A stretch of DNA of 64,000 bases from a virus. A program made the translations under genes and the position numbers. The notes beneath the pieces were generated by a model, which was not told where the DNA came from, did not search any database, and saw nothing but the letters and a program-made list of their open reading frames with translations. Numbering within the stretch: the first letter of the stretch is position 1; each line of letters starts with the position of its first letter. The stretch is taken from the IMG/VR virus record IMGVR_UViG_3300046703_000335, positions 88,336 through 152,335 of that record; one strand, given 5' to 3'. Shown piece by piece: positions 34,463-55,705 of the stretch.

Positions 34463-34652
34463 TTTTAATATCCTTTTCAATAGCTTTACAAAGTCTATTT
34501 AAGGCAGGAGCGAACATCTCAGAAATACCCTGTGATTTACCGGCTTCTATCATTATCCAGCCAGGTTCTTCTACGATATCTGACCCAGAGTCTCGATGTC
34601 CAAGTTCCCCTTCTCTATAGCATTCTTCAGCATGTTCGCTCGTTGATCGCAT
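34446..34652 (-). CDS. Small overlapping gene of unknown function (68 residues)
   Basis: The frame is open from 34685, but the ATG at 34652 has a textbook ribosome site (CACAAGGAGTTTGGATG), so I place the start there; this gives 68 residues. The first 82 bases overlap the end of the 3401-residue gene in another frame, and the last 17 bases overlap the start of the following gene. It fills an otherwise empty stretch of about 90 bases. The protein is charged in its first half (EHAEECYREGELGHRDSGSD) and has a short amphipathic C-terminal helix. No family is recognised. The ribosome site and gap-filling position support a real gene. Confidence 0.65.
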   Translation of the reverse strand: MRSTSEHAEECYREGELGHRDSGSDIVEEPGWIMIEAGKSQGISEMFAPALNRLCKAIEKDIKNVGKN

Positions 34653-37600: not shown

Positions 37601-40600
37601 TATTTCACTAGACAACTCAAATATAGTCTTATATGCATTTGAATTACTGCCTATGATATATAATTTAAATGTACTATAAAATGTCTCTTCATTAAAATCA
37701 TAAGCTAATGTTAATACCTTTCCCCCGGTATTATCAAAGAAGACGCCATATCTAAAATTAGCTTTATTGTAAGGATCATTTAAAGTTATAGACAATCCTG
37801 GGGTACCATATTTTAATAGATAATAATTCCCTAAATAAGATATATTAAATCCTGGGAGCTCTCTTATCTCATGTGTATAGATTCTATCCTCTACATTTTT
37901 GTTAAGAAAAAGCACTCTTGGATCAGATGCTCTATGGTCAGCCACATTAGTAGATACAAGTTGGAGGCCATTAATGGAGTCAATAGGTTGATTACTTAGA
38001 AGTACAGTCTTTGATAGCACGTCATTTTCGGTGTAGGTGAAAACATTATCTGTTAAAAATAATTTTATTCCCTCATAACTATGACTTGATATTTCCGAAC
38101 AAATATTATTTATAGTCTTATAGGATATAGTTGGAATACCTCCTATATCTATCTTATCATATAAATAAAATACCCACGCTATTCCTGGTACAATTTGATT
38201 AGGATTATCTTTCCTAATTAGATCAAAAATAATCTTAATATATTTGCCATCATAATTAGAAGATACAGTAACCAAGGGGGAAACTACTGTATAAACAGAT
38301 TGGTCTGCCAAGGACATCTTAATAATTGGTATCTCTACTAATCCTACAGTCATAACTTTTGAATTAGTATCATACATCTGTCTTACTAACTGCTGGTATA
38401 ATATCCCTTGTTCAATACTCATGACCCATCTTATATAATTGTTCTTCCAGTTATAGTTATTGTTTTCATTTAGATTGTAGTAAAAAAGTAGTTTACTATA
38501 AAAAGTGTTATACAAATTCCAAGCATAAAGGGTTTGATTATATGTGGTAGCAATCTCTGGAGAAGCATTATTTTCAGCATGAACAAGATCAGGATAAAGG
38601 GTTCTAAAAACAGGACCAGCAGTATCTACTAAAAATCTTAATTGCTTTTCATAAGTAAGTATTCGTACTCTCAATATATCAGAGATACCTGAAGTAGTAC
38701 CCCCATCAGGCATTGCCAGATAATCCTGATATTTACTATTTTTACGATTAAGGTCACCATTGTCAAAAGCCCGAGCTATCTTGTCATTATAGCTATATAA
38801 ATCTCTTACAATGAGCTCCTCAGTCTGCCAAGCTTGCTTTTCAAGAAGCAATCTTTTATAGATATTTTCAGGATCATAAAAATTCTCGTATACCTTTTCT
38901 TCATTATAACCATAATCACCGATAATGGGTTCTTCTCCGCCATCTGCAAACTTAAAAATCCAATCTCTATCTTTAGCTCTAATAACTATACCTTGATAGT
39001 ACCCATCTTTACTCTCTGCATCGTATATATTTTCTAAAGATAAATAAAAATATCTGAAGAACCCCTTAGAGGTATCTTCCTTTATATCATAGATGATTAT
39101 CGGAGGTGCTGGTAAAGGCATTGGTATCTTAGCCTTTTCAGTAAAATCATATCTTAAGGCATCCAGAACATCATCGATATTTCGTTCTTCTTTAAATGTT
39201 AACTTTGATAAATCTACGGTGCCAAGTTCTTCCCAATCCTTTTCAGAATCCCTCTTTATCAGAACTTTAAAATTTTTTGTGGACTCTTTAATAAAAGGAA
39301 ATAGCAGCTTTACCAGAGCAGCACTAAAAGGTTTCCTTATCCTACGGGTATTATTTGCAAGTCTTTCTACAGCATCCCCATAAGCTGTAGCTCCAAGACT
39401 CCCATAGTCATCAAACATTGGAAAATCTTCTTTATCCTGACGAGTAATTACAATACGATATCCTTCTGGAGAAAGAGCATCTACAAAGGTATCAAGAGGA
39501 AGTAATCCAAATGTATTGGGGTTTTCTGACGTCTGTACTTGTTTATCAACTATATTATAAGTCTTTATTCCCTTATCAGAAAAAGGCTTATTAGTAAGAA
39601 TATATTCATACGTTTTATTATCCGGAGATTCTATACTCGATATAGTATAAGTATTTTTAAAATCTTCTATAATAACTTTATCCCCTACATTTACTACACG
39701 TAAAAATGTATAGTTATTTGGAGTAAAAGATCTATCAGCTATAGGGACATTAACAACATAATCATCAACTAATTTATTATTTGTAGCTATTGAGTCATCT
39801 TTCCAAATAGTAAAAGATAGGTCAGATGTCCTATTCCAATAAGGTCGCTCAGATTTAATTACTCCTACAGTTATTATCTTATTCTTATCATTCTTATATG
39901 TTACATTACAACAGTATACTTCATTAAAAGATAGAAATCCTTTTTCAAATCTATGATAATAATCTGGAGCTTGATCACTATACCCTATAGGGAAATATTC
40001 TGAAAATCCATTATTAATCTGAGCGATATCTATATCTTTAGTGAGAGTATAATCTTCTGTTTCTACATACTGATCCTCTATGCTATAGTAATCGTTTACT
40101 TTACCAACTGCATTACTGTGCCCGAACTTAAATCCAAGACCAAGCTGCATCTCAGCACTTAACCCTCGAAGTCTCTGTTTATACCATTTGAAAAATCTCA
40201 AATAAAGTTGTTTCTTAATATATTCATCTTGTAGGAGATAATAAATATCCGCTACACCTCCTCCATAATTTGGAGTAGAGTTATTGGTTGCCCCACTATC
40301 ATTACCTTGACCGCCAACAGCTGCTTTTTGTTCTATGAGCTGTTCTATTTGAGGCACGGTAACTATTTCAGAGAAGCTTCTTTCAGTAAGCTTCTGTATA
40401 TAAAATTGATCTATATTCTGATATTCAAAATAAACGTCCAAACGATACCCTATAGGAAGAGCAGTTACAAATCGACAAGAACATGTTATTGGGTCACCTT
40501 CATTTTCAAATAAATTATCAAGACCCATATAATTAAGGATATATCGATCTAAAGATGCCACAGGAGTAGTTAATTCTACCACGCCATTAGTAATAGCATA

Positions 40601-43600
40601 GTCTGTGTTTACTTCTAATCTTCTCTCATTAAGATTCCCAATAGGTATGAAGGAACTAACATCTACAGTAGCATATATAGTTTGATTCCCTGAAATACCT
40701 TCTCCTAACAATGCAGTGAGATGCGTATAATCCCATTTTCCTAAACCAAATGTATCCTGATTTTTAAGTATGGTGGTGAAAGGAAAAATAGTGCTTGAAA
40801 CAACAGAGGATATATTTGGGATAATAGAAGCAGCTAAATCATACAAATCATTTGTATCAGAATACTGAATGATAGTTTCTTTTTTTAGCTCATTACCAGA
40901 AGGATCAAATAAAAGTTCTTTTATAGAAATATTGTTCGATGTAATATATACATCAAATGTACCTATGCATCCAAGGGGAACTTTATAATTAATATCAAAA
41001 GCACCAACTGCTAAGGGGATATAACTTGGTAAATTTATGTATTGATCATCAGTACTCTTCAGTGCGTACTTATCAAAAGCATCATTAAGAATATCAATAA
41101 AGTTATTATCTACTGTTATATTAAAAGGCCTATCCCCAGATATATAGGATTCTATTCTCTTGATAGCCTCAAAAAGCAATCCAAAATTATCGTAATTTGC
41201 GTATTTTAGGGAAATCTCCTTAGTATTGAAATTATCAACTACTTCTTTAAAGTATATCTGATCAACAGCCACTTTAACCATAGCACTTCCGGTATGCTTA
41301 TACGGTGCTGTATATGTAAATTGAACTTGAGGTTGTGGTCCAGAAGTAGTTAATACTACTGGGATCTTACTGATTTTTACATACCCTGAATAAGTCTGGA
41401 CTTTTACCCCTGAATCAATTTCAGAATTCAAAAGTAATTCAAAGTTATCTACATTTTGTATTACTCCCTGAACCTGATATATATAGCTATTACCAATATT
41501 CAGGATAGTTCCTACTCTAATGTTATCCTTAAGATCTCCAGAAAATTTTAATCGTGATGTACTATGATCTACACCAATAAGGAGACTAACCATATCCAGC
41601 CATTCTGGTGAAGTACTTATATATTTATAAGGTGCTACCATATTTTCATTTATAGTACTGTATAAAGTTACTATAGTACCTTTATCGGGTACATACACAG
41701 TACTCTTTACCATACTTAAAAACATTCTACTACTTATTTTATTAATAAAGGCAATTAGCATACCATGCGCAAAATAAGTAGACAGATCAGCATCAGTTAT
41801 TGTAAACTCATTTTTTCCACTAAAGAGTTCTAAAAGTGTATATTTAAAAAGATCAGGAGTAGTATTAAATGTATACGGAAGATTTATAGGATTTTGATCT
41901 TCGAAAGGTATCAAAGTATCTGGACTCCAAGTACCCTTTCCGAGATAATATTCTTCTCTGTTAGCATGAGTTATGGTGAAAGGATTATATTCCGGAACAT
42001 CTATATATGGTATGCTTGCTTTGAATGTGGATTTGGTAGACTGAATAGCTTTTGCTAATGTATAAATATCTGAATAATCTTTGATTAAATATTTATAAGG
42101 CACAGGATTCTTAATACCAGAAATATATTCATCAAGAACTATTGAATCTTTTACAAAAAGTACTTTAGCACTCCCTTCAAATCCTATAGGGGATTCGTAT
42201 CTTAATGTAAATGCAGGCTGAGCTGTATCATTAAGAATAAGTTTTCTTGCCGGTAGAGTTGTAATTCCTTCCGTATAAACTGGGAGAATAGAATATTTTA
42301 TATTGGAAGTCAGAGAGGATCTGAGATTTGGGTAAATAGTTACAGTAGTTTTTGTGCCGTTAGTTGTTACCAAATTTATTGTGTATATCTCTTGATCATT
42401 AACCAATAATAACCCTTCTTTCTTCAAATTTGTATTTAAAAAAAGAGGACCTCCATCCAGAATTATAAACCCAGAGTCTATTGGTATGGTAGTATCTACT
42501 TTAACATCTTCTGACATAGTTTGCCAGGTAATTTGATCATCAAATATCGAGAACACAGGATCAATAGCTGTCTCAGAAAAAGTACCATAAATCTCTATTT
42601 TTGTAGTTTGATTATTAAAGGATACATTTCTTAAGACATAGTAATTTAATGATTGAGGGTCATTATTAGCCACCTGAAGAATAGTACCTGCTTTAAGAGA
42701 ATCTGTTTTATCATAACCCTCTATCAGAAATGAATCATCCCCCGCATTTATTACTGTAGATATAAGTAAAATTGGGGCATAGGGGAGGATATCTGATTCA
42801 TATGTATAAGATCCTACAACAATATCATCACTCGATAATGCTATACTGTTTACTGTGGAATCTAACTCTATCAATTTTTTGATGTCATCATATTTTGCAC
42901 CATTGACATCAAAAATTTTATTGGTCCCTTTTACTCCGATACTTAAGATATTCTCAGGAGTAATACTCCCTAAAAATTTATAGTTAGCGGTAATTTTATC
43001 ACTATCAAACAATATCTTTTTTGGTACAGATACTGAAGGATTATTAACTTTAAACAGCAATCTCTTGCTTCCAATATCATTTTGAGAAAAAGTAAATACA
43101 TCATCAATTATAGTATATGAATAGTTAATACTTTTATCTATACTACGAGCTATACAGTTTATCTGCGCCATAGGAGTATAAGAAGCTCGTATCTCAACAG
43201 TAATTTCCTCCGAGGGTAGCATATCAATATACCCTGTGATATATGACATATTAAAATCTATACCTTCAACAAGTATCCTTGTTAAAGTTACTTGACTTCC
43301 TGAATCACTTAGCTTATTATATTTTTTCGACAGTACTAAGGAATTAATTACTAATGGATAGCTATTAAGGCGTAAAGTCTTTAGTTCAACTTTCTCATCC
43401 TTTATATCATCACCTTCTACATAATAAGACAATAGAACGGTCTCATCAATCTTAGTAGGCTTACTAAGCGCAAATGCTCCCGATTCTGGATCAATAGTAA
43501 AGTCTATATCACGAAGCAAATTATTGGAATCTGTATCTTCATAATACACAGTGTAATCTATTCCTTTTAATCCCGATACTCCAGGAATAACCAAATTGTT

Positions 43601-44776
43601 GAAATCATTTACATTCTCCTTTTTAACTCCGGTTATTACACTAATACCATCCCATATGAGTTTTTTAGGATATGTTAAAGTATCTATTAAAGCTTCATGA
43701 TTACTGTGCTCAACAAAAGTAAGCATACCCGCACCATCATTAGACACATATTCTGAATTCTTTATTTTTTCCGATCCAGCTACTTTTATGGAAAAATCAT
43801 CTGTAGACAAAATATCCTGGACAGGTCTTACTACTACAGTATCCCCCTCTATTGTCTTTTTATCAATAGTAATATTACCATTAAATGTGGTACTTATCTT
43901 ACTGACTTGAACTTCATCTTCCATACTATCTAAAAATTTTATATAAGCAACTTTTCTCTCTTCATATGGAGGAATAGGGTATAAGATCTCTGAGCTATTT
44001 GTATAATTGATAAAATAATCTTTAACTTCTACCGCTTTTTTAGGCTCCTCACCATTTTTACCTATGAAAACTTGAAGACTACTATGTGGGTAGGGTATCG
44101 GACTCAAAGAGATATCAAAAACTGGTGAAGTATTATTAGCAACTAATGTCTTAGTAGTACTTAATACTGTAGCAATATCAGGCTTCTTCTTTGATGTACC
44201 ATTTTGAAATTTAAGAGTTACTCCAGTATCAAGATTAAAATTACCAGATGGAGCTATAACAGGATCAAGCATCTGTATACCAGTAATTCCCCACTCGCTA
44301 TTATCCTTGTTATATATAATATTAGTATCTGCATGCTCATATTTTACACTATCAAGATATATCTTTTCTATGGAACAGCTACCTGACTGCACATCTGGGT
44401 CAGAGTTATTTTCTTTTGTATACTTTTCAATAATGAAAATATTTGTTCCATCTATACCTGTTACAGTGTATGCAGTTCTATCAATGTCAAGTTTTATTTT
44501 ATCATTATGAGATAGATTCTGAGCTCCTGTATACTCTCTAATAACATCACTATTCTGAATAAATGTTCCATATCCACTAAGGTCATTGCCTATTAAGGAG
44601 GACTGAATCAAATATTCTTTATTTATCCCTGTTTCACCAGTCTTTACAGTAGGGTCATCACCGGGATTAACTTCTATAGTTCTTGTAGAAGATGCATTTT
44701 TAATACTGACACGCGCACCACGAACTACAGTATCGTCAAGATAAAGCGAATTTAAATTAAAAATTTCTGATCCCAT
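34571..44776 (-). CDS. Giant baseplate-type structural protein (3401 residues)
   Basis: This single open frame of 3401 codons encodes a mainly beta-rich protein with no enzyme motif noticed. It carries recurring domains. Three related units near residues 854-912, 1149-1209 and 1259-1319 start like FTLRYESPIGFEGSAKVLF, VQFTYTAPYKHTGSAMVKV and FDINYKVPLGCIGTFDVYI, and each ends in a helix rich in Leu/Ile. Later there are several segments of the type KTIxxLxxEI (for example YKTIFELSSEINN and YKTINNICSEISS). The gene lies between the spike and wedge genes, so a baseplate or long tail-fibre connector is likely. The start has GAAGGAAATATAATG. Its last 82 bases overlap a small gene in another frame. 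Exact function is unknown. Confidence 0.9.
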   Translation of the reverse strand: MGSEIFNLNSLYLDDTVVRGARVSIKNASSTRTIEVNPGDDPTVKTGETGINKEYLIQSSLIGNDLSGYGTFIQNSDVIREYTGAQNLSHNDKIKLDIDRTAYTVTGIDGTNIFIIEKYTKENNSDPDVQSGSCSIEKIYLDSVKYEHADTNIIYNKDNSEWGITGIQMLDPVIAPSGNFNLDTGVTLKFQNGTSKKKPDIATVLSTTKTLVANNTSPVFDISLSPIPYPHSSLQVFIGKNGEEPKKAVEVKDYFINYTNSSEILYPIPPYEERKVAYIKFLDSMEDEVQVSKISTTFNGNITIDKKTIEGDTVVVRPVQDILSTDDFSIKVAGSEKIKNSEYVSNDGAGMLTFVEHSNHEALIDTLTYPKKLIWDGISVITGVKKENVNDFNNLVIPGVSGLKGIDYTVYYEDTDSNNLLRDIDFTIDPESGAFALSKPTKIDETVLLSYYVEGDDIKDEKVELKTLRLNSYPLVINSLVLSKKYNKLSDSGSQVTLTRILVEGIDFNMSYITGYIDMLPSEEITVEIRASYTPMAQINCIARSIDKSINYSYTIIDDVFTFSQNDIGSKRLLFKVNNPSVSVPKKILFDSDKITANYKFLGSITPENILSIGVKGTNKIFDVNGAKYDDIKKLIELDSTVNSIALSSDDIVVGSYTYESDILPYAPILLISTVINAGDDSFLIEGYDKTDSLKAGTILQVANNDPQSLNYYVLRNVSFNNQTTKIEIYGTFSETAIDPVFSIFDDQITWQTMSEDVKVDTTIPIDSGFIILDGGPLFLNTNLKKEGLLLVNDQEIYTINLVTTNGTKTTVTIYPNLRSSLTSNIKYSILPVYTEGITTLPARKLILNDTAQPAFTLRYESPIGFEGSAKVLFVKDSIVLDEYISGIKNPVPYKYLIKDYSDIYTLAKAIQSTKSTFKASIPYIDVPEYNPFTITHANREEYYLGKGTWSPDTLIPFEDQNPINLPYTFNTTPDLFKYTLLELFSGKNEFTITDADLSTYFAHGMLIAFINKISSRMFLSMVKSTVYVPDKGTIVTLYSTINENMVAPYKYISTSPEWLDMVSLLIGVDHSTSRLKFSGDLKDNIRVGTILNIGNSYIYQVQGVIQNVDNFELLLNSEIDSGVKVQTYSGYVKISKIPVVLTTSGPQPQVQFTYTAPYKHTGSAMVKVAVDQIYFKEVVDNFNTKEISLKYANYDNFGLLFEAIKRIESYISGDRPFNITVDNNFIDILNDAFDKYALKSTDDQYINLPSYIPLAVGAFDINYKVPLGCIGTFDVYITSNNISIKELLFDPSGNELKKETIIQYSDTNDLYDLAASIIPNISSVVSSTIFPFTTILKNQDTFGLGKWDYTHLTALLGEGISGNQTIYATVDVSSFIPIGNLNERRLEVNTDYAITNGVVELTTPVASLDRYILNYMGLDNLFENEGDPITCSCRFVTALPIGYRLDVYFEYQNIDQFYIQKLTERSFSEIVTVPQIEQLIEQKAAVGGQGNDSGATNNSTPNYGGGVADIYYLLQDEYIKKQLYLRFFKWYKQRLRGLSAEMQLGLGFKFGHSNAVGKVNDYYSIEDQYVETEDYTLTKDIDIAQINNGFSEYFPIGYSDQAPDYYHRFEKGFLSFNEVYCCNVTYKNDKNKIITVGVIKSERPYWNRTSDLSFTIWKDDSIATNNKLVDDYVVNVPIADRSFTPNNYTFLRVVNVGDKVIIEDFKNTYTISSIESPDNKTYEYILTNKPFSDKGIKTYNIVDKQVQTSENPNTFGLLPLDTFVDALSPEGYRIVITRQDKEDFPMFDDYGSLGATAYGDAVERLANNTRRIRKPFSAALVKLLFPFIKESTKNFKVLIKRDSEKDWEELGTVDLSKLTFKEERNIDDVLDALRYDFTEKAKIPMPLPAPPIIIYDIKEDTSKGFFRYFYLSLENIYDAESKDGYYQGIVIRAKDRDWIFKFADGGEEPIIGDYGYNEEKVYENFYDPENIYKRLLLEKQAWQTEELIVRDLYSYNDKIARAFDNGDLNRKNSKYQDYLAMPDGGTTSGISDILRVRILTYEKQLRFLVDTAGPVFRTLYPDLVHAENNASPEIATTYNQTLYAWNLYNTFYSKLLFYYNLNENNNYNWKNNYIRWVMSIEQGILYQQLVRQMYDTNSKVMTVGLVEIPIIKMSLADQSVYTVVSPLVTVSSNYDGKYIKIIFDLIRKDNPNQIVPGIAWVFYLYDKIDIGGIPTISYKTINNICSEISSHSYEGIKLFLTDNVFTYTENDVLSKTVLLSNQPIDSINGLQLVSTNVADHRASDPRVLFLNKNVEDRIYTHEIRELPGFNISYLGNYYLLKYGTPGLSITLNDPYNKANFRYGVFFDNTGGKVLTLAYDFNEETFYSTFKLYIIGSNSNAYKTIFELSSEINNTYLFHSTVPTANRSRTSDLFISTSDYVSAKEFFAIPYISTNNIYSSVDKNTDQFYYRIYTDSAKIKKLDIIFYNLIVDGKVIYKDTTISDIFTFSFQKIDGSFKTLAEICDEINSFIYLGENLLSASSVYEAEPKSGLTTSYILTNVNILPVGFDWVTTVYVDTYIEAISGKDSNSRTISSIKNAVFSFPMYTSNGNPNKAAIEGIPVSGKWNVINNREIIELSCIDGFEWSVSFSDFDSGDYKSYMTPQEILDLIDNNKPITEEQYNQIKVVEDSPVVGALKELILTRINGSESNSATYNLRKYSTINELVEAIVLTKFNASGEVDDNGNRAFFTAKLIGNSEVEGKYKSSEFETAFVPIIKSFTVDMSDGTVLYKNNQLIGWKLNNIILKGNIKHRINIKEERYSYGETHKFTIGDPEAAYIDTLSNVPQGFRKDIIAFDIYSWDYNAQYEVKDNWLYFKSSSVDFIKASDLGQPVKTLGYGLPLAGSGHAMAPDKESIADLVNRINNNNIVNKWFYANLKFTREDKFNPGYFEYSYLPNFHANVPLSITDNIMLKDENVLQIKPASNYQFTASNITVDDGTDTLSASCDWNLNYKYERTFFFNEISNRTIDGLTNSINAALAPEIADSLVEAVLDPGSHGLSGSMSKYLLPSFFDRIVSTVGTNLSMYIGAQRYTAIQIKIRHLSGSNYTVNNVTYVIPRTRDRIIIKYDIAYRGTYTLPAYSLAGINIGFLSDFLRSIKPYPDAIFTPLFNSTVLSDSYRYYASDRLLNLSSSINVDGTYLGARLHDIVAFKVLNMTPKATINVSDSNITVISFNTYTKALSSNTDLHAFINSIKGNYSTGFLFCDVLPIEISSVDTGRLNSEGYSLVSNNTPAHVYFGILGDIKFVQISDHNLHIQYNYIKERLGMPWRDSQGNLMYDYYTPENYNENNPTAIDLNNFLGYLRTGRYNQIKSSVINEAIVSNKYLWLYMKFHKEFGCDQRANMLKNAIEKGNLDIETLGQIS

Positions 44777-44786
44777 TATATTTCCT

Positions 44787-45404
44787 TCAATTTATCTTAG
44801 TAAACAATGAGGGTATCCCTATTACTGCCACAGGACCTACTGGAGGAACCGGGGCTATAACACCAGTCACTATGACCGTAAAATGTACTGAAGATTTAAG
44901 ATGATTAACAATACCAAAAGATATTGATTCACATAAATTAGCTGCATCTCTTCCTGTTAGTTGCTTAGATACCATTAATGAGTACATCAGGTTAGATAAT
45001 GTACTAACATTAACAGCTGTAAAACTCCCTATGCCACCACCAAGTGCTATACCCGCAGCAGTGCCCGATAATACCATCCCCATAAGAATTTGAGACAAAC
45101 CATTTGATATTGAATCAAATAATTTTTTTATATCTCGCCCATTTAATCTTTTAGAAGCGGCTTTACTTAACATTAAACCACTCATAACTGTGGGAACTAA
45201 TCCAGTTACAGCCATACTATTTATATTACCTATAGGACCTGCAGTTCCATTAAGTGTACAAGAAACTAAATTAGGTGTTACAAGATAAGTCGCTACAGAA
45301 GTACTCACGGCATCCACTAATTTAATAGCATCCCTTCCTGTTAACCTATTTAAGGATAGGAACCCCTGTATTGATGATGATATTGCTTTAGATACTACTG
45401 GCAT
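44787..45404 (-). CDS. Small virion protein with three internal repeats
   Basis: The 205-residue protein is not recognised as a known family. It holds three related units of about 64 residues, each with an S-x-x-L-[TN]GRD motif and a following amphipathic helix: NRLTGRDAIKLVDAVSTSVA (about 19-38), KRLNGRDIKKLFDSISNGL (about 85-103) and KQLTGRDAANLCESISFGIV (about 147-166). Gly/Pro/Val-rich stretches such as GPIGN, GGGIGS and PVPPVGPVAVIG link them. Its start overlaps the spike stop (TAATG), so it is probably translated together with the spike. A protein with three like units next to a trimeric spike could sit as a pseudo-threefold adaptor; this is speculation. Confidence 0.8.
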   Translation of the reverse strand: MPVVSKAISSSIQGFLSLNRLTGRDAIKLVDAVSTSVATYLVTPNLVSCTLNGTAGPIGNINSMAVTGLVPTVMSGLMLSKAASKRLNGRDIKKLFDSISNGLSQILMGMVLSGTAAGIALGGGIGSFTAVNVSTLSNLMYSLMVSKQLTGRDAANLCESISFGIVNHLKSSVHFTVIVTGVIAPVPPVGPVAVIGIPSLFTKIN

Positions 45405-47422
45405 TACATGCTAGCCTTTGCAGTAGAAGAGCCCTTTAAGGGTGCACCCGTAATATAATCATTATGAGTGCGACTAGTTATAATACCCCCCAGGTTACCC
45501 AATCTACCATTCAAGTTTATCGATCCCCCAGTTATATTAATAGTTGCTGCCTTAGAAGTTTCAATTCCAATATTCAAACTTGCTCCTATAGTAGCTCTAC
45601 CTGCTCTTGTACTGAGACCAACATTACCTGAAGTAGTACTAAGAGTAACATTTCCTGCTCTTGTATTCGCGGTAAAGTTACCCGAATTAGTAGTAAAGCT
45701 ACGATTTCCTACTCCTGTAATTTCTTCTTGGATACTACCTGTCAAAATCTTTAACTTCTTATTACCAACATTAGTAATCTCTTCCAGAATATCACCCCTG
45801 ATAGATTTTATAGTTAGTTCAGAATTTCCGCTATTAATAAAGGTTTTTCGATTACCAAAACTCTCATTTTTTTCTTTAGTAACTTTTTCAGTAAAAGCAT
45901 CTCCAACTATAACATTATATCCTGATCCAATACTAATAGTAGATGCTCCACTTACTCTTTCTACCCGGGCACCCTTTACTGCTAATTTATCTGAACCATT
46001 GATTATGGTTTCACGAGTGGATTCCACTTCCACACGCTCATTACCACCAATCTTTTCAATCTTATAATACTTCCTGACACTATCTAATTTTTTATCTTTT
46101 TTATCGAAGTCATATAAATCGGGTGATAATTCAGATCCATACATAAAAAATACAGAGCTACTTGTTCTAATGTCCATACTTCGATTACTATAAGGGTTAC
46201 CATCACGCTCATTATGTGATCCAATCTGCCACCTTATACCTCCGACAGTATCTAAATCCCATGAATTAGCATACCGAGAATCCTGTCCCCATACTTCCTT
46301 CTTACTCCCACGAGCAAGAATGGACATTGACCTACCTTTACCTAATCCTCCGCCTGTAGCAGCAGGAAGATGTTGAAAGAAGTGCCCTTCTTTATCTATA
46401 CCTAAGTATGCCCCTAATGAAGGACTGGTTTTATTTGGCTTAAATAGAGTAATAGCAGAAGCAAAATTATCTATACCGTCCCCGGACACTGGCTCAAATG
46501 AAAAATTTCCTGAATTATCATCGGGATCTGTAAAAAGAACAGGCCTTAAAACTCTACCATAATTCCCATTATTTGGATTATTACCTATAAAGTTACCTAA
46601 TGAAAATATAGCAACAGGTTTTCGAATAGTTTTATTAGAACTATAGTTAACATCATTTATAGGTTTTACTCCAAAATCCCTATCATCTACTTCAAGAAGA
46701 TATTCCACTAAATATGGGTCAGAGGCCCCATCAGAATTCTGAGGTCTTATTACGAAAGTGTCTTTACCATTAACTCTTACATCCTTAAAAGCATTAGGTA
46801 TCTCATCAATCTCAATAGGACTTATGCTGTTACGCCGGACTATCCCAGCATTTCTCCAGATACCACTACTAAACACATAATTGTTAAGAGAAGTATTAAT
46901 GATAGAATTATCTTCAGGTCTTAATACAAAGCTATTTCCACAACTATCATCCACTTTAAAGTAATCACCCAATAAAACTTCTATACCTTCAGTAGAACAT
47001 AATGATACCCAGCCTTCCTTTAATTTTCTCATACGGAAAAAAAGTTCATTCTTTTCCTGAATTTTTACATCATCGGACCATACTTCCACATTTCTATTTT
47101 CTAATCCAAGTACGTAATTTGGTAAATAAGTTATTGGAAAATAATCTCCTGATTGACGTGCCACTAAAATAATTGAACCCTCTTCTGGGGTAGCTTGTAT
47201 AAAGCTATGGGTTCCTGAAAAAGGCTGGGAAATATCAATTATTATACCTGACCCATACCCCTTTCTAAAGTCAACGTACATTTTTTGTCTATCAACATCA
47301 ACTTTTTTTACATCCCCAATTAAAAAAGTTAAATCTTCTTGACCCCTGGCACTTGGAGAGGGTATCTCATTAGGAGCTATTTTTCTACCGGGTAAGTTAA
47401 AGTACCCTTTAGATGTTCTCAT
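45404..47422 (-). CDS. Baseplate central spike protein (gp5 / gpV type, no lysozyme domain)
   Basis: The 672-residue protein has an N-terminal OB-fold-like part (about 30-110, with GDVKKVDVDRQKMYVDFRKG and a later GSIILVARQSGDYFPITYL). A central part has no lysozyme motif. A C-terminal region of repeated short strands (about 465-650) carries GNKKLKILTGSIQEEITGVG, GNFTANTRAGNVTLSTTSGN and related units, the signature of a trimeric beta-helical needle. The end, SRTHNDYITGAPLKGSS, resembles gpV-type tips. The spike would pierce the outer envelope. Unlike T4 gp5 it carries no lysozyme. It starts two bases after the hub stop and ends in a TAATG overlap with the next gene. Confidence 0.87.
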   Translation of the reverse strand: MRTSKGYFNLPGRKIAPNEIPSPSARGQEDLTFLIGDVKKVDVDRQKMYVDFRKGYGSGIIIDISQPFSGTHSFIQATPEEGSIILVARQSGDYFPITYLPNYVLGLENRNVEVWSDDVKIQEKNELFFRMRKLKEGWVSLCSTEGIEVLLGDYFKVDDSCGNSFVLRPEDNSIINTSLNNYVFSSGIWRNAGIVRRNSISPIEIDEIPNAFKDVRVNGKDTFVIRPQNSDGASDPYLVEYLLEVDDRDFGVKPINDVNYSSNKTIRKPVAIFSLGNFIGNNPNNGNYGRVLRPVLFTDPDDNSGNFSFEPVSGDGIDNFASAITLFKPNKTSPSLGAYLGIDKEGHFFQHLPAATGGGLGKGRSMSILARGSKKEVWGQDSRYANSWDLDTVGGIRWQIGSHNERDGNPYSNRSMDIRTSSSVFFMYGSELSPDLYDFDKKDKKLDSVRKYYKIEKIGGNERVEVESTRETIINGSDKLAVKGARVERVSGASTISIGSGYNVIVGDAFTEKVTKEKNESFGNRKTFINSGNSELTIKSIRGDILEEITNVGNKKLKILTGSIQEEITGVGNRSFTTNSGNFTANTRAGNVTLSTTSGNVGLSTRAGRATIGASLNIGIETSKAATINITGGSINLNGRLGNLGGIITSRTHNDYITGAPLKGSSTAKASM

Positions 47423-47424
47423 AT

Positions 47425-49881
47425 CTACCCACTATATGTTGAATATTTTTGATTATCTTCTAATAGACTTTCATCTACCGTACTAATTGGAACATCCATT
47501 AATATCTTTGTGGCATTATCCACATTATTAATCGCAGCTATCCCTGTTTTATTATTCATACTTTCATAAAAATAAGGATTAGACTGTGAATTTTGTTGCT
47601 GCTTTACATCCTCAAGTGTACTATAGATATTATCCATTTTATCTTTAGACTTTTGAATAGTAACTTCTTCTTGTTCATTAGTTGCAGTAGGATTACTAGC
47701 TACGCTATTCTGTATATCATTATTAGCCTCACTACTAACTCCATAAGATGTTGCTTCACGTATCCCTGAGCTATTTAATATGGAGCTCACTTCCTGATCT
47801 TTTACATCAATAAAGTTTGTAGTATCTCGCATCTTACCATCTTTTGTAATTACAAGATTAGCTCCGTAAGGAAAAGCACCCATATGTCGGTACCCAAGCT
47901 TATCCGTAAATGGGACACTTTCATCAGTTAGCATAACAAGTTCATTAGAAGTATATGTAGCCCCATCACCAGCATCTTTAATTTGATCCTGAGTCCTCTG
48001 TTTTACATTAGCTCGATCGATTTTCCATAACCCCAATAACCCCGGGCCATCATAAACTCCATTTTGAGCTGATATTAATTGTTTTTTCCAATCATTTATA
48101 GTTTTATCTAAATCTTTAGGCTGCTTGCCTTTTTCAGATATAGCACTAATTTTATCTTTTAATGCTGCAGTATTTATATTTCCGTCATTTATCAACTTAG
48201 CTATCTCAGCTTCTCTATCTCGCAGCACACAAGAATAGAGTACATCCCCTAGCTGAGATCCTGGCACACCACTATTACCATCATCAAAAACTTTTTCTCT
48301 TCTAAATTGTAAGGTTAACTCAGTGACTGCAGAAGAACCATATGTAAAATTATGATTAATACCGGTTACATAATAAAAAGTATCTATATGCTCAAGATAC
48401 ACTGGATAACCAAGTCTCATCTCTGGTCTTAACGGGATAGAAACACTCCCAGTATATGCCTGACCATTCTTTCTAGCCATCTCAGCCACAGCTATCATTT
48501 TAAGCTGTTTTGCGTTCATACCGTATGGCACGTTAAGCTGTTCTGATCTTATCCCATATCTTTTAATTGAATCAAAATCAGCGTGAAAACCTATAGCCTC
48601 AAGGGAAGGCAGTGATTGATATAAAGGACCAGTAACAGTTAGGTAATTTATAATTGAATTTGAATCAAAAGAAGAATTATAGTTAATAATCTCATCCGGC
48701 CCTACACGATAGTATGGTACTTTACCTGAAGCTACATCAAGATTATAAAAAGGTGGCTTAAATACTATCTCCCCATTAGTATCTACAAAAAATTCCATGA
48801 AAACTTTTTCGCATATAGTTGTAGCTATTTCCAATTTTGAATAAATTGTAGGTTCAGCACCCGAGCCAAATAATTCAAACATACCATAGGGTTGAACTCT
48901 TGCCAATATCCCAAAATCTAAATCTAATTTTGCTCTTCTATCTGCTTGCTGACCCAGTGATGCTTCTTTAGGATCAAGAAAAGACAGCATTGAATCACTG
49001 ACAGTCTTAAAGTCTATGGGACCCCGTAATCCATACATTCTCAGAGGGATTTTTTCTAATTGTTTTCTTATAAGATCGGGATTATCATCCGCAGATACTC
49101 CCAAACCAAAACGATCATTCCAGTAATCTATAACAAGGCTTGATAAAGGGCCAAAAGTATCTCTTGTAGGAATCAATGAATCAGGAAAAATGCCAGTCTG
49201 TGACCATTTAGGAAATATAAAATTATAATGCAAAGCAGAACCATTAGTAGCATGCTGAGCAAAAAAGGAATCTACAAATAAAGAGTATATTATCTCCCAT
49301 GCAGACATTTTTTCAAATGTTGAAGGAAATCTTATTTGTGGGGCTCCTCCAAAAAAGGCATCCTGAACACTTGGATTTAGTGTGATTTTCTGGTATTTCC
49401 ACCAGCATAAAAAATCTTCACAAGTAATACTTATAGTATAATTACCATCAGAATAACTTTCTTGTACATTAGTTATCATACCCCAGAATACTGGATAGTA
49501 TCTCGGTACATAGTTATACTCTGGTTCAAGAAATCTACCTTTCATGTATATTTTTACTTCCATCATAGGCATAAAAAATGGCACTCTTGTTCCATTTGGT
49601 AGAGTTATATAATAATCCTCATGTATTCCTTTATATATAGGTGCTATAACTTCAATAGTCGCTCTGGATGCTCCGGGGGGAGATATTGCTGCACTGACAT
49701 TAATAGAAGATATTCCTCCCCTTATATCGATACTTTGAGTTGATTTAGCCTCCATTGGAGATAATACTCTTGATGTCAAAGCTCCATTTATGATAACAAA
49801 TGCATCTGGAGCTATCTTTAGAACATTTCTTCGATAATTAAACTCATCAAGAGTAAACAATCCTGATTGAACATTTGCCAT
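47425..49881 (-). CDS. Baseplate hub protein (gp27 / gpD type)
   Basis: The 818-residue protein has the pattern of hub proteins that hold the spike. An early beta region (GISSINVSAAISPPGASRAT, about 55-75) is followed by FWGMITNVQESYSDGNYTIS (about 132-151) with a Trp-rich end, and a later domain with RLGYPVYLEHIDTFYYVTGI and HNFTYGSSAVTELTLQFRRE (about 489-529), which is how the second tube-like domain of gp27/gpD proteins usually reads. About 280 more residues form a charged, helical and probably flexible C-terminal extension, which is unusual. The place directly before the spike gene agrees. The start has GGAATTAACATAATG. The assignment is by pattern and synteny. Confidence 0.82.
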   Translation of the reverse strand: MANVQSGLFTLDEFNYRRNVLKIAPDAFVIINGALTSRVLSPMEAKSTQSIDIRGGISSINVSAAISPPGASRATIEVIAPIYKGIHEDYYITLPNGTRVPFFMPMMEVKIYMKGRFLEPEYNYVPRYYPVFWGMITNVQESYSDGNYTISITCEDFLCWWKYQKITLNPSVQDAFFGGAPQIRFPSTFEKMSAWEIIYSLFVDSFFAQHATNGSALHYNFIFPKWSQTGIFPDSLIPTRDTFGPLSSLVIDYWNDRFGLGVSADDNPDLIRKQLEKIPLRMYGLRGPIDFKTVSDSMLSFLDPKEASLGQQADRRAKLDLDFGILARVQPYGMFELFGSGAEPTIYSKLEIATTICEKVFMEFFVDTNGEIVFKPPFYNLDVASGKVPYYRVGPDEIINYNSSFDSNSIINYLTVTGPLYQSLPSLEAIGFHADFDSIKRYGIRSEQLNVPYGMNAKQLKMIAVAEMARKNGQAYTGSVSIPLRPEMRLGYPVYLEHIDTFYYVTGINHNFTYGSSAVTELTLQFRREKVFDDGNSGVPGSQLGDVLYSCVLRDREAEIAKLINDGNINTAALKDKISAISEKGKQPKDLDKTINDWKKQLISAQNGVYDGPGLLGLWKIDRANVKQRTQDQIKDAGDGATYTSNELVMLTDESVPFTDKLGYRHMGAFPYGANLVITKDGKMRDTTNFIDVKDQEVSSILNSSGIREATSYGVSSEANNDIQNSVASNPTATNEQEEVTIQKSKDKMDNIYSTLEDVKQQQNSQSNPYFYESMNNKTGIAAINNVDNATKILMDVPISTVDESLLEDNQKYSTYSG

Positions 49882-49905: not shown

Positions 49906-51348
49906 TTAAATAGATATTTCATGCTCATTTACCACGCCAGGAGCAGAATGCTTAGCTATAAGTTGTAAAAAATCAAGTCTAATTGGATCAACTATTGGAG
50001 CACTAATAGCTCTATTATGTAATGTTCTCCACATGTCATCTAAGATAGGATTAACTTGAAACTCTACACAATCTAAATAGTTTGATGCTAAAGGATTAAT
50101 TATTCTTGCTCCAAAGTCACAATGCTGAGGGTACATCCCATTATCTGTACCTTCATGACCTATAACTGAGCCTACACTAACTGTAGCCCCCACTACAAGG
50201 ACTATGCTATTTATATCTAAATGATAATATCGCACATATAAGGAGGTACCTCTAAAATTTGTAGATACTATTATATAATTTGAACCTCCATATAAAGTAC
50301 TTTTCTGCACTTTCCAAACAGTGCCATCAGTAGCAGAATAAACTGTACCTGTGTGAGTTCTAAAATCACATTTCATATTAGGATCACCATGAGGTTCTCC
50401 ATCTCTCCACCCACGAGTTATTCTAAAGATACCAGGACCTATGGGTGAAACGCCATTTTCTAATGGATCCCCAAAAAACTTTTTTTCATCTGAATACTCT
50501 CTTGTTGTATAATCATAAAGAGTTGGATCCTTAGCATCACTCAAAGGAAAATAAGAATTAAGTTCATTCTGGTCTAAACCAAGAATCGGTGTAAATCCTA
50601 CATTCTCCCCCTGTAAACTTATATGGACTTGATTATCCAGTTGGTTATCCTCCATAGAAACATGTCCTTCCACACCTGGATATAGTATACCAAAACTTGA
50701 TACTATAAACTCAAAACTATACTCCATTTTATAGGGGCTGGTTGCAAGATCATTAAGAGTAAAGGTACTAAAGGATCCTATATAAGTTGAGCCATCGTAT
50801 TCAATCTTAATACTGTCCATAACATTTATTACTCTACTAGTACCATCTTTAAATAAGGATGGGTTAGATGCACCATCTAAAAAATACCAGCCATTATTCT
50901 TAAATAATCCTGTGATATCCATAACATTGACAAAACTCGGAGACCCTCTTCTATATTTGTTAGTTAAACCACCATTATTATTGAGATAAAAATAAAAAGC
51001 AGCTGATACCCCCGAAGCTGATATCGTAGCTTGTTGATTTCCCCAAGCTGTTGTCACCCAACCACGCCTAGTATACGTGTTACCTAATACTTGCTGCTGT
51101 CCGATAGTCATATCACGAGGATTAATAAACAGTGTTAAAGTAGCCACATCATAACTTAGATATGAATTATATATCGATATTGTAAATTCCTTATGATCCG
51201 CTGGAATGTTAGCAGCAGTTCTTAGATTTGTTGTATCAGTTTCCAAGGTACTATTTACAACAGAATTATAAAATAAACTACCACCCTGTCTATTTTGTAA
51301 TGCTAACAGAACTTCTTTTGTTGCTGTATATTTTTGATTTTCTATCAT
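49906..51348 (-). CDS. Hub-type protein with a degenerate M23 peptidase domain
   Basis: The 480-residue protein joins a tail domain shared with the preceding gene (residues about 60-225) to an M23/LytM-like domain (about 300-440). M23 landmarks are visible: THTGTVYSATDGTVWKV, then YVRYYHLDINS (H376, the YGHL position), then QHCDFGARIINP (the HxH region). Key ligands differ. The residue four before D328 is N324 instead of His, and the last motif is H409-C-D411 instead of HxH. The fold is probably kept, while zinc binding and peptidoglycan hydrolysis are doubtful, although a shifted site using H320 cannot be excluded. In phages such domains usually sit at the tail tip and open the cell wall. 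The start is the TAATG overlap with the upstream gene. Confidence 0.8.
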   Translation of the reverse strand: MIENQKYTATKEVLLALQNRQGGSLFYNSVVNSTLETDTTNLRTAANIPADHKEFTISIYNSYLSYDVATLTLFINPRDMTIGQQQVLGNTYTRRGWVTTAWGNQQATISASGVSAAFYFYLNNNGGLTNKYRRGSPSFVNVMDITGLFKNNGWYFLDGASNPSLFKDGTSRVINVMDSIKIEYDGSTYIGSFSTFTLNDLATSPYKMEYSFEFIVSSFGILYPGVEGHVSMEDNQLDNQVHISLQGENVGFTPILGLDQNELNSYFPLSDAKDPTLYDYTTREYSDEKKFFGDPLENGVSPIGPGIFRITRGWRDGEPHGDPNMKCDFRTHTGTVYSATDGTVWKVQKSTLYGGSNYIIVSTNFRGTSLYVRYYHLDINSIVLVVGATVSVGSVIGHEGTDNGMYPQHCDFGARIINPLASNYLDCVEFQVNPILDDMWRTLHNRAISAPIVDPIRLDFLQLIAKHSAPGVVNEHEISI

Positions 51349-52202
51349 TATCCTATTGTCCAGATAGTTTTTTCAGACTTAAATACAGTACTATAAATTA
51401 ATCTATAGGGATTTGCTGAATCTTCCGTTATATCAAAGGATTCAAAATGCCCTAAAAAAGTTACATAATCAAAACTTATTCGATTATATAATCTTTCTCG
51501 AATCATACCTCGTCTAGGATGATTCCCTATAAAAGAAGGATTTTGATTTAAGTATCTATTCATTATGGCAAATTCCGCAACCTCCCGTTCAGATGAGGGG
51601 GAATTTGACATTGTATAACCATTGTCTTCTTGATATAAATAACCGTTTATTCTATATATGTTAATAAGCGCTCTAAGAAATTGATATGACTCAGAGACAC
51701 TCCTACCAAGAACAGTTAAGCCTTTATACTGATTTGGATATTTAGGATCATTAGGATTAAGTTTAAAATTAAAAGAATAAGTTGAACCTGAAAAATTTAT
51801 TGAATCTAAATCATCTCCCCAATGTTCTTCTACCCATCTTGTCATTGTATTGTATCTATTAACAATTTTTGATGAGCTTATTACTAAAGATTCTGGATTT
51901 GGGGTAAGTTTAAGAGATTCTATGGTAGACCCATCCTCTAATTCAATATGAACCGGTTTAATATTGGAATCTACATAATCAATAATCATTGGAATTTCAT
52001 CGGTTACTTTTCTTACATAAGGGGGTTGAAATTCCACAATATTAGCTGATTGGTTTTCTACTTTCCAATTCTTAGTAGGACCTAGAATATTAACGTTTTC
52101 GAAACCCTCAGTTGTATAAAGCTGTGGCAATGTTTTAGCCATTATATACTTTTCAAAAAAAGCTGGAGTTATGTTAGCTATTGTTGTATTATCTTCAGCC
52201 AT
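51348..52202 (-). CDS. Baseplate hub / tail-tip protein (paralogue of the next gene)
   Basis: The 284-residue protein follows the tape measure. Two segments match the next protein: NPESLVISS...TRWVEEHWG...INFSGSTYSFNF, and near the end YVTFLGHFESF...NPYRLIYSTVFKSEKTI. They correspond to NPRDMTIGQ...RRGWVTTAWG...ISASGVSAAFYF and to STYIGSFSTF...SPYKMEYSFEF in the 480-residue protein. The pair therefore shares one beta-rich tail domain. The place after the tape measure and before gp27/gp5-like genes suggests a tube-initiator or hub layer, as T4 gp48 and gp54 form; this is inference from synteny. Its stop overlaps the next start (TAATG), so translation is likely coupled. Confidence 0.75.
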   Translation of the reverse strand: MAEDNTTIANITPAFFEKYIMAKTLPQLYTTEGFENVNILGPTKNWKVENQSANIVEFQPPYVRKVTDEIPMIIDYVDSNIKPVHIELEDGSTIESLKLTPNPESLVISSSKIVNRYNTMTRWVEEHWGDDLDSINFSGSTYSFNFKLNPNDPKYPNQYKGLTVLGRSVSESYQFLRALINIYRINGYLYQEDNGYTMSNSPSSEREVAEFAIMNRYLNQNPSFIGNHPRRGMIRERLYNRISFDYVTFLGHFESFDITEDSANPYRLIYSTVFKSEKTIWTIG

Positions 52203-52210
52203 ATTTCACT

Positions 52211-55200
52211 CTATCTTCTTTTCTGTTTTTCGAAGTACATTCTCTCAAATGCTTGCTCAATAGCAGGTCTTATACTTTTTAGAAATTCTTCCGGATTACC
52301 ACTTACTGATCCTATATTAATATTAACAGGAATGCTGGGAGCGATAGCCCCTTGGGATCTACCAGGGCTAAGAGAGCTCAACATATTAGCTGCAGCGGTA
52401 CCTGCAAATGCCCCAAGATCCCCGCTGATACCTGATGACATATTACGAGCATTTACTACTACATCTCCTTTACTTAACAGAGCATAACCACCTGAAGATG
52501 ATTTATAATCTTTATTAGGTGTAACAGGCTGAGTATCCGTTATCTTATTATTATCATTGGTAGTATCTTTATTTTTTTTGGATAAAAATAATTCTACTTG
52601 TTTCGTAGAATATTGCAGATAACCTTTTTGGTATGCAAAGTCTTTCTGCATTACATCCGCTTCTTTTTCCAACTTAAGAGCTTTTTTATCATCACCTTTA
52701 CCTCTTACAGAGGCAGCTTCATCTCTTTTTTGTGTTATAGCTTCCTCAGCAGCCCTTTTTTCTTCAAATATCTTCCTTGCTTTATCTAAAGCAGCATCAG
52801 AAGCTGAACCAATAAGTTGGCCCCCTATATCTGATCCATGTTCCTTCTTTAACACATCTCCCAGATGAGCAGCGTTCTTAGTTAATCTATCAATCTCTTT
52901 TTGATATTCTTCTTGCTTTTTAACATCAGTTGTTTCTGCCTTACCTGCTTCCAAGACTTTTATATCCGCACCAATTTCTTTTAATCCCTTATAGTAGATA
53001 TCTTTACTTGGATCCTTTAATATTGCTTTTTCTTTATCTGTAGCCTGTAAAAAACTAAAAATAGATCCTACTGTCTTAGCAGTACTTACAGCTGCCAAAG
53101 CAGCATCCTTTTGAATATCATTACTTGATAATATATACTTTGCATTTTCAGCAGATATACCAATAAAATCTTCAATAGATTTTGTGTTATTTACAAGATC
53201 ATCTAATCTCTTATCCTGAGCTTCCATTCCATCATCATTTACTTTAGATACATTATTTAATTCAGTTAATGTAATTTTATCAATGTTCTTTTGAAGATTC
53301 TCATACCCTCCTGAAACTAAATCCTGTACAGCCTGGGGATACTTATCCAAATAAGCCATGACTTGCTTTATATCTTTACTATTCACTTTAGCGTATGTCA
53401 ATAGGCCTGATCTTATAGATTCCATATCCATTTGACCAGTTTTCATACCATCTTGAATAACCTTTTGAAATCTCTCTTGAAATCCCTTTTTATTCTCGGG
53501 AGATACATTATCTACCATCTTTTGAACATCTTTACCCATTTGAAGGATACCAACTCTTGACGTCTGAAGATGACCAAGCATTTTTCTAGCAAATTCTTCT
53601 GATACTCCCATAACAGTTTTCATATGCTCTATGGCGGCACGGTCATCAGCAAATATATCCAGACCTCCCTGCTTTTTCATTTCACTAAAATATTTACTTA
53701 ATTTAGAACCGGCATCCTTAGAAAGCATCTCTAAATATTCTGCCATATTTAAAGCATTAGATTTAGCAGCATGGTCAGCCATAGCAAATGTTTTTTGCAA
53801 AGTATCACGTAAATTTTCTTCTGCTGATACCTCATTTTCCAATTTAGCTATTACTGCTTGATCCGCTTTACTGCCTTTACTTTTTTCCTCTTCTATCTTT
53901 TTTCTTTTATCTTCTAAAGCTTTGTTATGTTCCTGTATAGCTGCCCCTGTTTCAGCTGCCATTTTTTGAAAATCTTTTCTATAAGATTCTACTCCACCAG
54001 ACATTTCCATGAAAGCAATTTTTTGATTAGAACTCATATTACCAAATAAATTGGTCATTTCCTGTGCCTGCTTCTGAGCATCCTTAAAACCCATGGCACC
54101 TTGTTTTTGAAAATTCTTAAGATTATTAGAAGCTACATCCATAAATTTACCATAATAACTTAGAGCTTCTGCAGCGGCATAAGTAGCTTGATAAAATTTT
54201 TGTGATTGTATCCCGGCAATAGAAGCATCATAAGATAGAACTTTAAAACTTTTTGAAGCTTCATCAACAGTAGACTTAAGATCAGTCATCTGTTCCCCTA
54301 ACATAGCCCCAGCTTCATCCATAGAAACACCAAAATCGAAACTTACCTTTGCAGCATCTTCTGTAAGAGCACTATATCCCCCCGCTATATTCTGCATTAC
54401 TCCCTGAAGACTCATACCTGCTTCTGAAATCCCTTTAAACATCCCAAGAATATCTTCAGACTTCAAACCATATTTAAGATTTCTCTTAACATCAAAGATA
54501 GAATCAGTAAATGTCTTCATAGACTTACTAACATCTTTCATCAATACTGTAGGTCCTTGAAGTTGAGTAAATGTCTTATTAAATCCTTTTAAAAATTTAT
54601 CTAATTCATTAACAGCTTTAGCAATAGCTACTACTGCGGAAATGATAAGTCCTATCCATCCTAATTTACCTAATGAATTTAATGCTGTGCCAAGCATCTT
54701 CATCATATTACCTGCACCCAAAGCACTTTTACCAGTAACCCCCATTATCTCGTTAAGCTTACCTAACTCTTTTGAAGCTTCACCATGAGATTTAACTGCC
54801 CCCATTCTCTCCCCAAAACTTGATTTTGTACTAAAGAGTGTTTTAAGACTACTTACTTGCTCAGATCTTAAACTTACACCTTTTCGAGCTTGAGCAGCAC
54901 CTTGACTACGGGTTATCTCCCCCATTTTATTCTTAGCAAATCTTTTTGGGTCCGTCAATCCCGTAGCACTTTTAGTAAGATCTCCTACCATCGGAGTTGC
55001 TTCCTCTGAGACATTTCTTTTTAAAAATTCTCCCTGTATCTTATGCATCTCCTCAAGTTGACCCAGTTTTTCCTTTAAATCCTTAGCTTCTTCTTTACCT
55101 AATGTCCCACTTTTTTCCTGAATATCAAATTGTTGCCTCATAATATCAAGGCGCTCTTGTGTAGCATTATTAAGAGCTTTAGTACTTCCTATTTTGCTAC

Positions 55201-55705
55201 TATCTATTTTACTAAGAGCTTCAAAAGTATCTGCTAAAAGTTCAGCATTTCCCCTTAATTTCTTAGACTCTTTAATCGAACCTACTAAACTTTTTTCAAA
55301 TGCCTCAACAGATTTGCTAGCCTCATCCAATTCATGGTGGAGAGCATTTAGCCTCTTTTTATTATCTGTATAGTCTTTAGAATTTTTCTTATTATCCTTC
55401 TTAAGATCTTTCTGTACTTTTAAAAGCTTTAATTCTTCTTCTTTAAGCTTTTTATGAAGTTTACCACTTTTCTTTAAATTATCATTACTATGTATTATGC
55501 TACTAGCAAGTTTCTGCTCTTTATCCATAAGATCTTTTTGAGCAGTAGCTGCTGCTGAAAGAGCATCCGTGTATTTTTTACGAACACTTATGCTATAAAG
55601 CATAGTACTATTAAGATCTTTCTCTCTTGCTAATAGGTTAACTTGCTTATCAGCTAATTCTTGATATTTTTTTATTTCGGCATCGATATTACTTAGATCA
55701 GCCAT
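52211..55705 (-). CDS. Tape measure protein
   Basis: The 1164-residue protein is almost wholly helical. Residues 1-230 are long charged coiled coils. About 347-366 form a hydrophobic segment (WIGLIISAVVAIAKAV) of the type that tape measure proteins insert into the host membrane. The end has NIGSVSGNPEEFLKSIRPAI followed by a basic tail, common in this family. Tape measure proteins set tail length inside the tube and are ejected with the DNA. Using the usual ratio of about 0.15 nm per residue, the tail would be roughly 170 nm; this is inference. No lytic domain such as lysozyme or M23 is seen inside it. GAAGGA stands before the ATG; the gene overlaps the previous one by 8 bases. Confidence 0.92.
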   Translation of the reverse strand: MADLSNIDAEIKKYQELADKQVNLLAREKDLNSTMLYSISVRKKYTDALSAAATAQKDLMDKEQKLASSIIHSNDNLKKSGKLHKKLKEEELKLLKVQKDLKKDNKKNSKDYTDNKKRLNALHHELDEASKSVEAFEKSLVGSIKESKKLRGNAELLADTFEALSKIDSSKIGSTKALNNATQERLDIMRQQFDIQEKSGTLGKEEAKDLKEKLGQLEEMHKIQGEFLKRNVSEEATPMVGDLTKSATGLTDPKRFAKNKMGEITRSQGAAQARKGVSLRSEQVSSLKTLFSTKSSFGERMGAVKSHGEASKELGKLNEIMGVTGKSALGAGNMMKMLGTALNSLGKLGWIGLIISAVVAIAKAVNELDKFLKGFNKTFTQLQGPTVLMKDVSKSMKTFTDSIFDVKRNLKYGLKSEDILGMFKGISEAGMSLQGVMQNIAGGYSALTEDAAKVSFDFGVSMDEAGAMLGEQMTDLKSTVDEASKSFKVLSYDASIAGIQSQKFYQATYAAAEALSYYGKFMDVASNNLKNFQKQGAMGFKDAQKQAQEMTNLFGNMSSNQKIAFMEMSGGVESYRKDFQKMAAETGAAIQEHNKALEDKRKKIEEEKSKGSKADQAVIAKLENEVSAEENLRDTLQKTFAMADHAAKSNALNMAEYLEMLSKDAGSKLSKYFSEMKKQGGLDIFADDRAAIEHMKTVMGVSEEFARKMLGHLQTSRVGILQMGKDVQKMVDNVSPENKKGFQERFQKVIQDGMKTGQMDMESIRSGLLTYAKVNSKDIKQVMAYLDKYPQAVQDLVSGGYENLQKNIDKITLTELNNVSKVNDDGMEAQDKRLDDLVNNTKSIEDFIGISAENAKYILSSNDIQKDAALAAVSTAKTVGSIFSFLQATDKEKAILKDPSKDIYYKGLKEIGADIKVLEAGKAETTDVKKQEEYQKEIDRLTKNAAHLGDVLKKEHGSDIGGQLIGSASDAALDKARKIFEEKRAAEEAITQKRDEAASVRGKGDDKKALKLEKEADVMQKDFAYQKGYLQYSTKQVELFLSKKNKDTTNDNNKITDTQPVTPNKDYKSSSGGYALLSKGDVVVNARNMSSGISGDLGAFAGTAAANMLSSLSPGRSQGAIAPSIPVNINIGSVSGNPEEFLKSIRPAIEQAFERMYFEKQKRR

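Follow-up and report, generated by a model that had tools for sequence, protein, structure and literature searches.

In a canonical M23 peptidase the zinc ligands are the His and Asp of a first motif, given as H(x)nD, together with the second His of a last motif, HxH; the other His of HxH, and one located some 30 residues before it, are on the side of the water (PMC9662197, a review). In the same review a degenerate M23 fold, or LytM factor, is one that lacks the catalytic motifs and/or the zinc, and roles in binding or activation have been described for degenerate domains (PMC9662197, PMC5053510). The degenerate Csd2 is described in PMC5053510 as having lost the first His from both motifs and as not binding metal. 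For Csd1 the same paper describes a zinc held by a His nine residues ahead of the Asp, so on this account a longer His-to-Asp spacing is no obstacle to ligation. Tails of phages can carry the fold as well: gp13 of phi29 is treated in the review as a tail-associated hydrolase (PMC9662197).

The M23-like domain considered here is encoded in a stretch of 64,000 nucleotides (the window), one part of a virus record of 210,408 bases, and belongs to a 480-aa protein that gives the single match to PF01551 at E 0.001 in the whole record. The coordinates originally predicted for its gene are correct; it is on the minus strand, in the following company.

52211-55705: tape-measure-like gene (PHROG 1686, E 0.0017)
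51348..52202, minus strand: 284-aa tail protein, upstream, a homologue of the 480-aa protein's N-terminal domain
49906..51348, minus strand: 480-aa baseplate/tail-tip protein, with an N-terminal tail domain and a C-terminal M23-like domain
47425..49881, minus strand: 818-aa hub-like protein, downstream (PHROG 400 'tail protein', 2.4e-8; YQBQ match below cut-off)
45404..47422, minus strand: 672-aa spike with a gp5-like C-terminus (Pfam and PHROGs matches)

The gene is real. With tape-measure-like, hub-like and spike genes around it, it is placed in a tail/baseplate module, as a virion-associated peptidoglycan hydrolase would be. A gene at 59264-62197 matches annotated tail sheaths, and in relatives the counterpart of the 480-aa protein has the same two neighbours, the 284-aa protein on one side and the hub on the other.

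Within the tail module the M23 domain is the sole wall-enzyme candidate found. The spike had been expected to lack a lysozyme domain, and none is seen in Pfam, where its sole match, below cut-off, is to the gp5 C-terminal trimerisation domain; its residues 435-630 do match phrog_430 ('baseplate hub subunit and tail lysozyme'), at profile positions 384-578 only, which we take to be the C-terminal part of that profile. In the tape measure, the hub and a 3401-aa protein no wall-enzyme match over cut-off was found either. A match of the tape measure to PF01425 'Amidase' is below cut-off (E 0.034; 13.6 bits vs 27) and is likely due to chance. [The 3401-aa protein, encoded downstream of the spike (window 34571-44776, minus strand), gave no Pfam match at E 0.1.] The whole record was searched for four wall-enzyme families, M23, SLT, phage lysozyme and Amidase_2, the last two giving no match. 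One SLT gene is present, outside the window:

L174 1345-2154 (at ~33.8 kb in the window's own record), minus strand: 269-aa protein with an SLT match and a hydrophobic N-terminal stretch

It adjoins frames read by eye as a glycosyltransferase and a nucleotide kinase, and its product is possibly a lysis enzyme.

The 480-aa protein itself falls into three parts.

50539..51348, minus strand: N-terminal domain, residues 1-270, homologous to the adjoining 284-aa protein
50437..50538, minus strand: fast-evolving linker, residues 271-304 (34 codons)
50014..50436, minus strand: M23-like domain, residues 305-445, from PF01551 and AlphaFold2

The relatives' counterparts of the 480-aa and 284-aa genes both match one profile. 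Two adjoining tail genes (51348-52202 and 49906-51348) are thus seen to have a homologous domain, with a swappable enzyme domain borne by one of them. The linker evolves fast: its dN/dS (NG86) is 0.92 in comparison with the closest relative, L001, and 0.83 in comparison with L002. The corresponding values are 0.054 and 0.092 for the N-terminal domain, and 0.045 and 0.178 for the M23 domain. The M23-like domain is evolving under purifying selection.

The PF01551 match covers residues 327-415 (E 1.6e-7; 31.8 bits vs a cut-off of 28.7), and the distant family members L030 and L083 score below that cut-off. AlphaFold2, given 35 sequences and residues 285-462, returned a model with pLDDT 90.5 and pTM 0.86, its weakest blocks being residues 285-304 (63, 72) and 315-324 (74), the latter, with the H320 loop, having the lowest confidence within the core; the full-length protein with 5 sequences gave pLDDT 35. 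The domain is predicted to have the M23 beta-sheet fold. Its model resembles M23 peptidases and LytM factors alike, with VIA Z values up to 11.5, a value given both by 3nyy (rmsd 3.6 over 133 residues) and by DipM. The fold is no proof of activity, since the similar structures include the inactive LytM factors DipM, EnvC and SpoIIQ.

The family has nine distinct members: the window's own 480-aa protein; L001, L002, L003 and L004, found with it (and 95, 78, 60 and 55% identical to it); and L024, L030, L052 and L083, found with the hub-like 818-aa protein, which served as query for distant relatives. The M23 domains of these relatives are 31-94% identical to that of the window, and the nine thus include near kin (L001 at 94%). 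They were aligned with 26 other viral M23 domains to give 35 rows, in which the residues of the site fall as follows.

50389..50391, minus strand: H320, proposed first metal ligand, invariant in 9/9
50377..50385, minus strand: D322-P323-N324 insertion, absent in 6/9 family members
50371..50373, minus strand: K326, in place of the Gly of HxGxD; K in 9/9, G in 26/26 others
50365..50367, minus strand: D328, proposed second metal ligand, invariant in 35/35 rows
50221..50223, minus strand: H376, catalytic His of Y-x-H, invariant in 35/35 rows
50122..50124, minus strand: H409, catalytic His that opens the last motif, invariant in 35/35 rows, a count that partly reflects the choice of rows since L139, which is without this His, was left out
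50116..50118, minus strand: D411, Asp at the position of the zinc-ligand His (HxD); D in 9/9

N324, D328, H376, H409, C410 and D411 are the residues that the original prediction took them to be. What it made of the first of these does not stand. N324, four residues ahead of D328, had been read as the first-motif His changed to Asn, and that reading was an ungapped one: D322-P323-N324 align as an insertion missing from L003, L004, L024, L030, L052 and L083. Lying in that insertion, and with H320 invariant, N324 does not correspond to the first-motif His and is ruled out as a changed ligand. The H320 column has His in 25 of the other 26 viral domains and a gap in the remaining one. Six members space the first motif as H-x4-D and the other three, the window's protein, L001 and L002, as H-x7-D; the window's H320-x7-D328 has the form H(x)nD. 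H332 was also considered as a ligand and is ruled out, being Ser in L003 and L030.

The last motif is as had been claimed, HxD (H409-C410-D411 in the window) in place of HxH, in all nine members; the D411 column is His in 25 of the 26 others. The retention of H376, also claimed, is borne out, and its position is that of the catalytic His some 30 residues ahead of the last motif in M23 enzymes. [In L046 and L055, for which regex motif tags (HxH in the former, none in the latter) are unreliable, the alignment gives HxD. Cys410 as a required ligand is ruled out by Val in L052.] With HxH replaced by HxD the domain is classed as an M23-fold variant, not as a canonical M23 peptidase. Set beside the definition of a degenerate LytM factor, in which catalytic motifs and/or zinc are missing, one of its two motifs is altered and both catalytic His residues, H376 and H409, are kept in every member. 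The claim that expected zinc ligands had been lost therefore survives in part: one position has changed, from His to Asp, and the first ligand would be supplied by H320.

Twenty-two columns are invariant among the nine aligned domains. All five site residues (H320, D328, H376, H409 and D411) are among these 22 of the 175 positions of the model, for which p is ~2e-5 if positions are treated as exchangeable, which they are not quite. Other family invariants, K326, R330, E399, D402 and Y406, are unlike the residues usual in other M23 domains (the R330 column, for instance, has Arg in one of the 26). K326 and R330 are probably on the same face of a strand as D328, and H409 and D411 are on one predicted strand, two residues apart.

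HxD is rare. Among 55 viral M23 loci, found with a query from which the last motif was omitted and read by eye (several are near copies), the last motif is HxH in 53, HxD in one (L105) and lacks its first His in one (L139); 33 of the 55 were prepared for alignment and 26 used, L139 not being among them. In a tree of the 35 domains, built without the columns of the last motif, the nine members are on one side of a single branch (100/100), and the Asp/His state requires two changes, the second at L105. On this tree HxD arose at least twice. A pattern scan of IMG/VR for the GTD...HxD signature gave 8 stretches, every one on contigs of known members; the pattern is not exhaustive, since two of those already known, L002 and L024, escaped it. 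A scan of genome contigs with an M23 pattern found no relative, and such scans do miss members, since L083, which is in the scanned collection, carries the domain. Profile A6 matched 11 of 82 genomes of one phylum, all 11 with HxH by eye. In the same genomes the pattern GPHxH occurs in 75 and GPHxD in one, there in a frame not read as M23 (the reversed-pattern control gave 4). A match to Phaeobacter phage MD18 (E 0.6) was dropped as weak. No description of an HxD M23 domain was recognised in a literature search; one of the papers it returned, PMC8841776, contains 'HxD' a single time.

The relationship to described M23 domains is mixed. With the M23B/LytM-type enzymes (LytM, EnpA, ShyA, Pgp3, lysostaphin) the domain shares the Pfam match, the predicted fold, the His and Asp of the first motif, the Y-x-H motif and the His at the start of the last motif. 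It differs in having HxD where they have HxH, in its H-x4-D or H-x7-D spacing instead of their H-x3-D, and in the invariant K326, R330, E399, D402 and Y406. Like phi29 gp13 (3csq), to which the model compares with VIA Z 10.5 and an rmsd of 3.4 over 125 residues, it is an M23 fold inside a tail protein, although the tail protein is another one and so is the gene neighbourhood. The fold is also shared with the degenerate LytM factors Csd2, EnvC and DipM, and an altered metal site with Csd2, but the window family keeps the catalytic His whereas Csd2 lacks the leading His of each motif (PMC5053510). In L105 the M23 domain is in a long tape-measure-like frame and has HLD for HLH in an otherwise canonical motif. 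There HxD arose independently and, unlike in the window family, the first motif is the canonical HxGxD, so L105 has no equivalent of K326. [An M23 match in a long frame of a 469 kb record, L087 (the record of L064), has none of the usual motifs by eye.]

What occupies the same place in related baseplates bears on function. The hub profile identified 41 loci, 39 of them viral and 2 on genome contigs. A gene encoding the N-terminal domain could be located in 37, giving 31 distinct slot proteins counting that of the window; the census omits L050, L060, L066 and L079, on whose stretches the slot gene was not found. [L060 (= L033) does hold a C-terminal piece, without a Pfam wall-enzyme match.] Nine of the 31 have the HxD M23 domain (below the Pfam cut-off in L030 and L083), four have SLT over cut-off (L051, L053 = L029, L059 and L061), one, L056 (= L031), has Tlde1 over cut-off and also matches YkuD weakly, and one, L074, has VanY over cut-off. 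Recognised wall-enzyme families thus occupy the slot in 15 of 31 proteins, or in a larger number when weak matches are included: L062 matches SLT, and L057/L076 match PF18013, phage tail lysozyme, all below cut-off only. No Pfam wall-enzyme match was found in 14 of the 31, including the long-tailed L058 and L063 and the fragment L075, and no slot protein among the 31 has a canonical HxH M23 domain. The usual catalytic motifs of the SLT, Tlde1 and VanY slot enzymes look intact in their sequences. To our knowledge a Tlde1/YkuD domain is unusual in a tail protein. Tunturiibacter phage Tunturi_5, a distant one, encodes the N-terminal domain in a gene that has no M23 domain and adjoins an annotated 'lytic tail protein'. 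[The tail module of this lineage is also present, as L083, on a contig binned as Candidatus Altiarchaeales, which is either a binning error or an archaeal virus.]

An unusual but working enzyme is a likelier reading of the domain than a dead remnant, and on balance we lean towards a wall peptidase whose metal site is His-Asp-Asp. Judging from what is conserved, H320 and D328, of a first motif whose loop is lengthened, would hold a divalent metal together with D411. H376 and H409 would activate the attacking water, by analogy with canonical M23 enzymes. At infection, while the tail tip crosses the wall, the domain would cleave the peptides of the wall. Asp is a common zinc ligand in general, and a possible chemical parallel is provided by the HDAC-class zinc deacetylases, with an Asp-His-Asp site and two His residues as catalytic bases. 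No M23 structure in which Asp takes this ligand position is known to us. A fuller version, to which we give slightly less than even weight, is of an active M23-fold peptidase in which charged residues were fixed along with the His-Asp-Asp site, the metal may be one other than zinc (Fe or Mn, for example), the variant is that of one phage lineage, and the slot swaps at least four Pfam wall-enzyme families.

The invariance of K326, at a position where Gly is otherwise universal in the alignment, leaves room for a metal-free account. K326 and R330, the side chains of which probably face the site, could neutralise its acids without metal, replacing the charge of the metal, and the M23 fold of such a pseudoenzyme would bind peptidoglycan or organise the tip. 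The unusual invariants R330, E399, D402 and Y406 would fit with this, as would the binding and activating roles known for degenerate M23 domains and the presence of DipM, EnvC and SpoIIQ among the structures similar to the model. However, both catalytic His residues are invariant here and Csd2 has lost one of them (PMC5053510); the slot of related phages holds recognisable wall enzymes; and the degenerate L087, without discernible motifs, shows a different pattern. We regard the pseudoenzyme as the chief competing reading, less likely than the metal-site enzyme but well worth keeping in mind. Of the two possibilities raised in the original prediction, a wall-binding remnant is disfavoured by the invariant catalytic His residues, the low dN/dS of the domain against L001 (0.045) and the wall enzymes in the relatives' slot, and a metal bound in another way, which would be by H320, D328 and D411, is the better-supported alternative. 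Simple decay with the loss of several zinc ligands, to which the change of HxH to HxD and an Asn four residues ahead of D328 had seemed to point, is very improbable given the placing of N324 in an insertion, the invariant H320, the same low dN/dS and the retention of the other site residues in all nine members. Activity could instead be directed at something other than the wall, with the metallopeptidase processing a virion protein or cutting a surface peptide, for example. Substrate is not readable from sequence, and the family's charged residues near the site do suggest an altered one, but the recognised domains that otherwise fill the slot belong to peptidoglycan-acting families and we consider such a target improbable.

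Two motifs, HxH among them, serve to recognise M23 enzymes and to tell active members from degenerate ones. If the domain is indeed a wall peptidase with a His-Asp-Asp site, the fixation of HxD together with both catalytic His residues would show that the HxH rule can miss working enzymes. The natural series from HxH through HxD to motifs lost would allow a test of how complete a metal site is required for the chemistry. Potentially the baseplate slot, with its SLT, Tlde1/YkuD, VanY or M23 domain, could also serve as a guide to how uncultured phages are matched to the walls of their hosts.
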